The position numbers and the translations under genes were made by a program. A stretch of DNA of 64,000 nucleotides, taken from assembly GCF_013267195.1 (NCBI RefSeq), contig NZ_CP053941.1, forward strand, positions 2,480,001-2,544,000, in the 5' to 3' direction. How positions within the stretch are numbered: position 1 is the first letter of the stretch; each line of letters starts with the position of its first letter. Positions 24,369 through 25,533 of the stretch are shown piece after piece. Source of the DNA: Halorubrum salinarum. Lineage in GTDB: Archaea > Halobacteriota > Halobacteria > Halobacteriales > Haloferacaceae. Below the pieces are notes generated by a model. That model saw only the letters and a list, made by a program, of their open reading frames with translations, was not told the DNA's origin and made no database searches.

Positions 24369-24650
24369 ATGGAACTCGAACTGCGGTTCTTCGCGACGTT
24401 TCGCGAGGCCGCCGGCGGGAAGACGGTGAACGCGGAGTTCGCCGACGGCTCCTCCGTCGGCGACGTGTTGCGCGAATTGGAGGCCGAGTACGAGGGGATG
24501 GAGGGCCGGCTGATCGTCGACGGCGACCTCGCCCCCCAGATCAACGTCCTGAAGAACGGCCGCGAGGTGCTCCACCTCGACGGGCTCGACACGCCGATGG
24601 CGGACGGCGACCGGCTCTCCGTCTTCCCGCCGGTCGCGGGGGGCGCATGA
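24369..24650 (+). CDS. Ubiquitin-like small archaeal modifier protein (SAMP3/MoaD-like)
   Basis: A 93-aa beta-grasp protein. MELELRFFATFREAAGGK and PQINVLKNGREVLHLDGL, with the end DGDRLSVFPPVAGG, are characteristic of the SAMP3-type (HVO_2177-like) and MoaD families, which are adenylated at a C-terminal Gly-Gly by UbaA for protein conjugation or sulfur transfer. Here the stop comes one codon later, leaving VAGGA, so a trailing Ala would have to be removed to expose the di-glycine. The last codon and stop (GCATGA) overlap the ATG of the next gene at 24647. Confidence 0.9.
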   Translation: MELELRFFATFREAAGGKTVNAEFADGSSVGDVLRELEAEYEGMEGRLIVDGDLAPQINVLKNGREVLHLDGLDTPMADGDRLSVFPPVAGGA

Positions 24651-25006
24651 CCGACGACGGGTCGGCGGCGACCGAGGGGAGCGTCGACGACGAGGCGGCG
24701 GGGGCCGACCTCCCGCCCGCCGAGGAGGGGTGGGAGCGAAAGACGGTCGCGTACCGCGGCATCTCTCGCCGCCTCGCGGCTCACTACCTCCGCAACCTCG
24801 GCGGGGAGCTGGTGGGGACCGACGACCCCGCGGCCGCGACCCGGGTTGACGGCGACGGCTGGCGAGTGACTCTCAGCGCCGAGACGGTGACCGCCGCGGC
24901 CGCCATCGAACTCACCGAGGTGACCGCCGAGTTCGCGGGCGACCCCGAGGTCCTCGCCGAGCTCCTGCCGAAGTACCGGCAGAAGGCGATGCGCGCCGGC
25001 GGGTGA
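24647..25006 (+). CDS. MoaD-associated DUF1952-like protein
   Basis: A 119-aa protein starting inside the SAMP stop codon (ATGA overlap). After an acidic leader (residues 1-25), the core WERKTVAYRGISRRLAAHYLRNLGGELV, VDGDGWRVTLSAETVTAA, IELTEVTAEFAGDP and LPKYRQKAMRAGG resembles the MoaD-related C-terminal domain (DUF1952) that neighbours MoaD/SAMP genes in haloarchaea. The conserved position and overlap imply joint expression with the modifier, perhaps as a partner. The family assignment is from memory. Confidence 0.65.
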   Translation: MTDDGSAATEGSVDDEAAGADLPPAEEGWERKTVAYRGISRRLAAHYLRNLGGELVGTDDPAAATRVDGDGWRVTLSAETVTAAAAIELTEVTAEFAGDPEVLAELLPKYRQKAMRAGG

Positions 25007-25533
25007 TGTCCGACGACGCCGACGGCGGGGAGTCGGGTGACCGGGACGACGCCGAGAAGGACCCGGGTCCGTACCCGATCGAGGGGACCGCGCTGGTGAA
25101 GACGGCCGCGCTCGCGAGCGTGCCGGCCGCCCGCGTCCCGGCGCTGCTCACGCAGGTTCAGGCCGACCTGGGGCCTAGGATCGACGAGTACCGCCGGCGC
25201 TACGAGCGGATCGCGGCCGAGCCGGACCGCGAGACGTTCCTCGTCGAACCGGATCACTGGGAGACGGTGGCCGACCGCGTGGGGCTCTCCGAGCGCGAGC
25301 GCGACGCGGTCGTGCGGGCCCACGAGGCCGCGGTCGAGCGGATCGGGTCCGGGAGCGGCCGCCGGGAGGAGTTCGACACCGCGCTGGAGATCCGGTCGGG
25401 CGTCGTTATCGGCGTCGACGTGGAAAGCGGAGGAAACGGCGACGCAGAGGCGGGAGCGAACGGCAGCGAATCGGATCCGGACGGCGGCGAATCGGACCCG
25501 GACAGCGGCGGGTCGGATTCGAACCGCGACTGA
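25006..25533 (+). CDS. Conserved acidic protein of the SAMP gene set
   Basis: A 175-aa protein whose ATG overlaps the preceding TGA by one base (TGATG). An acidic head (1-25) precedes a helical core (IEGTALVKTAALASVPAARV, VQADLGPRIDEYRRRYERI, FLVEPDHWETVADRVGLSERE) and a disordered Ser/Asp/Gly tail with imperfect SDPDGGE repeats. No family is recognised. The three coupled genes (SAMP, DUF1952-like, this one) form one transcription unit; what this member does is not known. Confidence 0.6.
   Translation: MSDDADGGESGDRDDAEKDPGPYPIEGTALVKTAALASVPAARVPALLTQVQADLGPRIDEYRRRYERIAAEPDRETFLVEPDHWETVADRVGLSERERDAVVRAHEAAVERIGSGSGRREEFDTALEIRSGVVIGVDVESGGNGDAEAGANGSESDPDGGESDPDSGGSDSNRD

Follow-up and report, generated by a model that had tools for sequence, protein, structure and literature searches.

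The SAMP3 gene of Halorubrum salinarum encodes a ubiquitin-like protein in which the Gly-Gly activation motif is followed by one further alanine, and this product is likely to be a precursor whose last residue is removed by a JAMM protease. The gene lies in the window, a stretch of 64,000 nucleotides, and the earlier note on this DNA had already raised the idea of a pro-form with a JAMM enzyme as candidate. This is the best-supported reading, in view of an invariant Gly-Gly before variable tails, the extension of all the SAMPs of the host, the fusions to a whole protein and the universal occurrence of the protease. We infer the cleavage, the identity of the protease and the fate of the products from the sequence, its conservation and its distribution, together with the fusions and the presence of JAMM and E1 genes.

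The SAMP3 gene and its C-terminal tail

The features concerned are the following:

24369-24650, + strand: orthologue of SAMP3 (HVO_2177), a MoaD/ThiS beta-grasp ubiquitin-like protein of 93 aa ending in GG plus Ala (translation, Pfam, PDB match)
24639-24644, + strand: codons of Gly91-Gly92, the activation motif, with predicted cleavage after Gly92 (invariant in 198/198 orthologues)
24645-24647, + strand: GCA codon of the extra C-terminal Ala, a predicted removable tail (codon reading)
24647-24650, + strand: ATGA in which the SAMP3 stop and the start codon of the partner gene overlap (sequence)
24647-25006, + strand: partner protein of 119 aa with a predicted TBP-like fold and the C-terminus KAMRAGG*, fitting the description of arCOG06308 and fused to SAMP3 elsewhere (sequence and predicted fold)
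24998-25003, + strand: codons of the exact C-terminal Gly-Gly of the partner (relatives never extended, 136/136 complete sequences)
25006-25533, + strand: third gene, for a small conserved protein, with a TGATG overlap with the partner (sequence)

Membership of the ThiS/MoaD family is evident from Pfam (ThiS, E 5e-17) and NCBIfam (SAMP1, 105 bits against a cut-off of 60), and the best PDB match is the SAMP3 of H. volcanii (HVO_2177, 2m19; E 4.7e-36 over residues 1-92), an orthologous beta-grasp protein with the same PPVAGG tail. The PDB sequence of the latter stops at GG, whereas the protein described here has an additional Ala, and its relatives carry longer tails or a fusion. The C-terminus translated from the + strand reads SVFPPVAGGA*, with the codons GGG (24639-24641), GGC (24642-24644) and GCA (24645-24647) before the TGA stop (24648-24650), and the last base of GCA is the first A of the partner ATG (24647-24649). 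Both the PPVAGGA tail and the overlap of its stop with the next ATG, as the earlier note described them, are confirmed in the sequence. As encoded, the protein ends in GGA and not in an exact C-terminal Gly-Gly; its mature end may yet be GG. The same genome contains genes for E1-like proteins. A sequencing or frameshift error in the run of G, which had been considered as an explanation, is excluded because many species reach the same outcome with differing codons: within the genus GGA, GGS, GGT and GGV ends are found, and the codons used for GG plus Ala include GGC GGC GCA, GGA GGG GCA and GGT GGC GCA.

Tails and fusions among the orthologues

SAMP3 sequences were gathered from 52 genomes of the same genus, from genomes of the order and from named genomes, and the removal of duplicates left 198 distinct haloarchaeal orthologues. 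In raw numbers, which like all the counts of tails, codons and fusions given here are uncorrected for relatedness, 75 of them end exactly in GG, 89 have between 1 and 47 residues after it and 34 are in-frame fusions, so the possibility that all orthologues end exactly in GG, which would have spoken against a pro-form, is false for 123 of the 198. The Gly-Gly itself is kept in every one, with all four synonymous glycine codons in use, which means that the amino acids and not the DNA are conserved; moreover, the free variation of the third codon positions indicates that this invariance is not due to chance. The motif is thus kept by purifying selection, which disfavours the loss of conjugation that the earlier note had offered as the other possibility, and in the 123 sequences an invariant Gly-Gly is followed by what looks like a dispensable tail. 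Within the genus, SAMP3 is either fused or extended (GGA, GGS, GGT, GGV, GGCEx, GGGGT, GGDD and others) in 52 of 52 genomes. Directly past the motif, 99 of these 123 sequences have a small residue (A, T, S, G or C) and none has proline, again without correction for relatedness. Two unusually long unfused tails have 47 residues, repetitive and rich in QTQLQ, in Haloquadratum walsbyi J07HQW1 (L214), and 44 residues (L130).

In the fused genes a variable linker joins the SAMP3 Gly-Gly to the partner in a single frame, an arrangement found in 12 genomes of the same genus and also in Halopenitus, Halobaculum, Halostella, Haloglomus, Halospeciosus, Halorientalis marina and others. In two of these genes (L003 and L005) the SAMP3 part is 97.8% (97-98%) identical to the unfused gene of the window, so that the switch to fusion must be recent and easily made. 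On the best tree of SAMP3 plus partner the fused state changes 11 times, against some 32 with shuffled labels; the exact number is uncertain, as several branches are weakly supported, and the tree does not separate gain from loss of the fusion. An AlphaFold model of the fused protein of Halostella consists of two folded domains, with pLDDT below 50 only at the AGG of positions 91-93, and in this model the flexible hinge coincides with the predicted cut site. On the other hand, a fused SAMP3 could function uncut.

Other ubiquitin-like modifiers of the host and its relatives

The remaining modifiers of the host are extended as well. SAMP1 ends in GGRSVR, and the other SAMP1 genes read from the genus have four extra residues, with the single exception of one that ends exactly in GG (L067, genome G022). 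SAMP2 (G000:C1:966169-966366, - strand; L272) ends in KGGTGASAPP, and all 30 of the 30 SAMP2 genes read from the genus (L272; L273-L301) carry 5-25 variable residues past the motif, whereas beyond the genus (L302-L321) SAMP2 may end exactly in GG, be extended or be fused. Finally, a ubiquitin-like protein borne on a plasmid ends in SGGR. With extended or fused cases in SAMP1, SAMP2 and SAMP3, residues past the Gly-Gly are characteristic of haloarchaeal SAMP genes in general and not the quirk of one of them, and all the extended modifiers of the host, the plasmid one included, are most likely precursors that a JAMM enzyme cleaves behind the GG. Since no chromosomal SAMP of this genome ends in GG, SAMP function should depend on a protease. 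The earlier note was silent on these extensions of SAMP1 and SAMP2, and it also missed that the next gene, often fused and always ending in RAGG, belongs to the picture.

In other haloarchaeal genera, SAMP2 is found in frame with a redoxin of the AhpC/TSA type (Halopenitus group, G302; L303-L305, L311 and possibly L319) and with a GNAT domain (G240; L315). The former fusion recalls the urmylation of the yeast peroxiredoxin Ahp1. The plasmid-borne modifier belongs to a cluster (G000:C2:39833-43200; L271, L265) that also encodes a DsrE-like protein, a DUF302 protein, a JAMM1 copy and a second E1 (ThiF).

Proposed processing by a JAMM protease and alternative readings

In the proposed pathway, the single alanine after Gly91-Gly92 would be the shortest form of a pro-extension that relatives may lack, carry as 1-47 residues or replace by a whole second protein. 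SAMP3 would be cut after Gly92 by a JAMM metalloprotease similar to HvJAMM1 (C1:2261601-2261930), and the freed Gly-Gly would be adenylated by the E1-like UbaA, leading to conjugation or sulfur transfer. As cutting would make the residues past the motif dispensable, the tail would be free to vary, to be shaped by ATGA coupling, or to be replaced through fusion with the next gene; in the species with fused genes, the cut would release SAMP3-GG and its partner in a 1:1 ratio, as happens with fusions of ubiquitin to ribosomal proteins.

Whether a JAMM homologue is encoded elsewhere was one of the checks suggested at the outset, and there is indeed one at the above position of the chromosome, related to JAMM1 of P. 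furiosus and with an intact motif (HSHP..S..D, for HxHP..S..D), plus a second copy on a plasmid; none adjoins SAMP3. JAMM genes are present in 51 of the 52 genomes of the genus, the one without being a 79% complete assembly, and throughout the order, where all 255 good genomes have one. As this universality extends to species where SAMP3 ends exactly in GG, the presence of the gene does not discriminate, and its comparison with SAMP3 extension was discarded as uninformative. The substrates published for HvJAMM1 are conjugates and linear fusions, and a linear SAMP1-MoaE fusion is cut precisely after GG, as judged by mass in vitro and by restored DMSO respiration in vivo (PMC4443979). Likewise, a JAMM enzyme of Caldiarchaeum subterraneum cleaves SAMP precursors, and cleavage by CsRpn11 is blocked by bulky residues close to the cut (PMC6043591). 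Cleavage after GG by JAMM enzymes is therefore established in other archaea, from which we infer it by analogy for the species considered here.

It is unlikely that the alanine is instead removed by a general carboxypeptidase or another protease outside the JAMM family: a tail of one residue could be lost non-specifically, but such trimming leaves unexplained the in-frame fusions and the orthologue tails of 12-47 residues, and cleavage after GG by archaeal JAMMs has been reported both for linear fusions (PMC4443979) and for SAMP precursors (PMC6043591). Quite improbable is also that extended SAMP3 is no longer conjugated and acts without covalent attachment, or in cis as a domain of the fusion, with a merely structural Gly-Gly. 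The modelling of fused proteins as two stable domains would agree with such a role, as would the dispensability of H. volcanii SAMP3 for molybdopterin synthesis (PMC4443979), but the motif is invariant in 123 of 123 extended or fused orthologues while the residues just past it vary freely, and in the fusion model it occupies the flexible stretch of lowest confidence. Moreover, with SAMP1-3 all extended, the host would lose all chromosomal sampylation, yet E1 and JAMM are kept.

For translational coupling the counts support a more limited role, the shaping of the tail. When the partner lies close downstream, the ATGA overlap occurs in 62 of 82 extended genes, and in all 33 with a single-residue tail, versus 6 of 45 exact-GG genes, although phylogenetically independent pairs, few of which are supported, show no significant association with extension. 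The suggestion of the earlier note that the alanine is a by-product of coupling stands in part, in that all these single-residue tails have the overlap. As the sole cause of the extra codon coupling is rejected, and a mere by-product is hardly credible, because the overlap coexists with exact GG (GGATGA) in L153, L117, L218, L149 and L187, because SAMP1 and SAMP2 are extended without this partner, and because coupling accounts for the shape of the tail but not for the freeing of the Gly-Gly.

Comparison with known systems

Maturation from a precursor is typical of eukaryotic ubiquitin, and the SAMPs of the well-studied haloarchaeal model are described with a terminal GG. In bacteria, the sulfur carriers of the QbsE/QbsD and HcyS/HcyD pairs bear a GGCF or GGA tail that is trimmed by a JAMM enzyme, HcyS being likewise a GG plus Ala pro-form with a metalloprotease to trim it. 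In these pairs the JAMM gene is adjacent, whereas in the host it lies elsewhere on the chromosome. Among archaea, the SAMP precursors of C. subterraneum with CsJAMM and its CsUb precursor with CsRpn11 (PMC6043591) are similar in having residues past the GG and a JAMM that removes them; there the removal was shown by experiment, while the present case is known from sequence, with tails on every SAMP paralogue that reach up to fusion. Natural fusions of ubiquitin-like proteins to MoaE, together with the engineered SAMP1-MoaE that HvJAMM1 cuts after GG (PMC4443979), offer a further parallel as linear arrangements of a modifier, its GG and a second protein, but the partner domain differs, and in the case described here it ends itself in GG.

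C-terminal precursors of ubiquitin-like proteins are thus an already known kind in archaea and bacteria. A literature search, with most subscription journals outside it, returned no report of lineage-wide SAMP extension or of recurrent SAMP3-partner or SAMP2-redoxin fusions, and as far as could be found, both the extension of all SAMPs throughout the genus and these recurrent fusions are new. Such natural fusions look like archaeal counterparts of the ubiquitin-fusion genes, and they would supply native substrates of archaeal JAMM enzymes as well as hints about likely functional partners.

The partner protein and the third gene

The relatives of the partner end in KA(M/I/V/L)RAGG followed directly by the stop, without extension in any of 136 complete sequences. 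With its GG end, its TBP-like fold, a MoaD-like neighbour and its occurrence in Halobacteria, the protein shows the traits of arCOG06308, an assignment made from the published description and not by accession lookup; this family of GG-ended TBP-like proteins encoded beside a MoaD-like one was proposed in 2010 as an analogue of ubiquitin-like modifiers outside the beta-grasp fold (Makarova and Koonin 2010, PMC2948915). Neither SAMP3 fusions nor C-terminal extensions were found in the accessible text of that paper, whereas both are present here.

Searches of the partner against Pfam, NCBIfam and PDB sequences gave no significant match, and only fold comparison and hhalign produced one. With its AlphaFold model (pLDDT 85) as query, Foldseek placed the MoaD-related protein 1v8c of T. 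thermophilus, whose family had been named as a lead ahead of the search, at ranks 1-2 among 350,542 PDB chains (E 2.6e-3), other relatives of the fold being possible. VIA-align superposed the partner on residues 85-165 of 1v8c (Z 11.6, rmsd 1.7 over 81 residues; next best 8.1), a region that starts right after the PPVAGG of 1v8c itself, and hhalign (P 2.5e-5) extended the alignment to the last Gly of both proteins, 1v8c ending in AASRGGG in its PDB sequence. The partner thus has the fold of DUF1952 (PF09189) and its order after a MoaD-GG, although it stays below the Pfam gathering score of that family (two of 20 members tested reach at best E 0.008; no match in the host genome), and tblastn found no copy of the Thermus C-terminal domain in plasmids. 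The bacterial and haloarchaeal proteins thus share the order MoaD-GG, TBP-like domain and GG end.

This arrangement leads to the tentative and rather doubtful idea that SAMP3 and its partner form a polyprotein of two modifiers, a cassette shared with Thermus (1v8c), in which a JAMM cut would free both SAMP3-GG and a non-beta-grasp RAGG protein, itself a modifier or sulfur carrier activated through its GG. That the Gly-Gly of the partner is never extended, in contrast to those of the SAMPs, would fit a motif that has to form the native end, since JAMM would not process that fold. The SAMP fusions also revive the hypothesis, put forward in 2010, of a second kind of modifier made up of GG-ended TBP-like proteins (PMC2948915).

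The third gene (25006-25533) has no significant match in Pfam and probably belongs to one of several small families described as neighbours of arCOG06308 (PMC2948915). Other genera, too, have a similar ORF after the partner.
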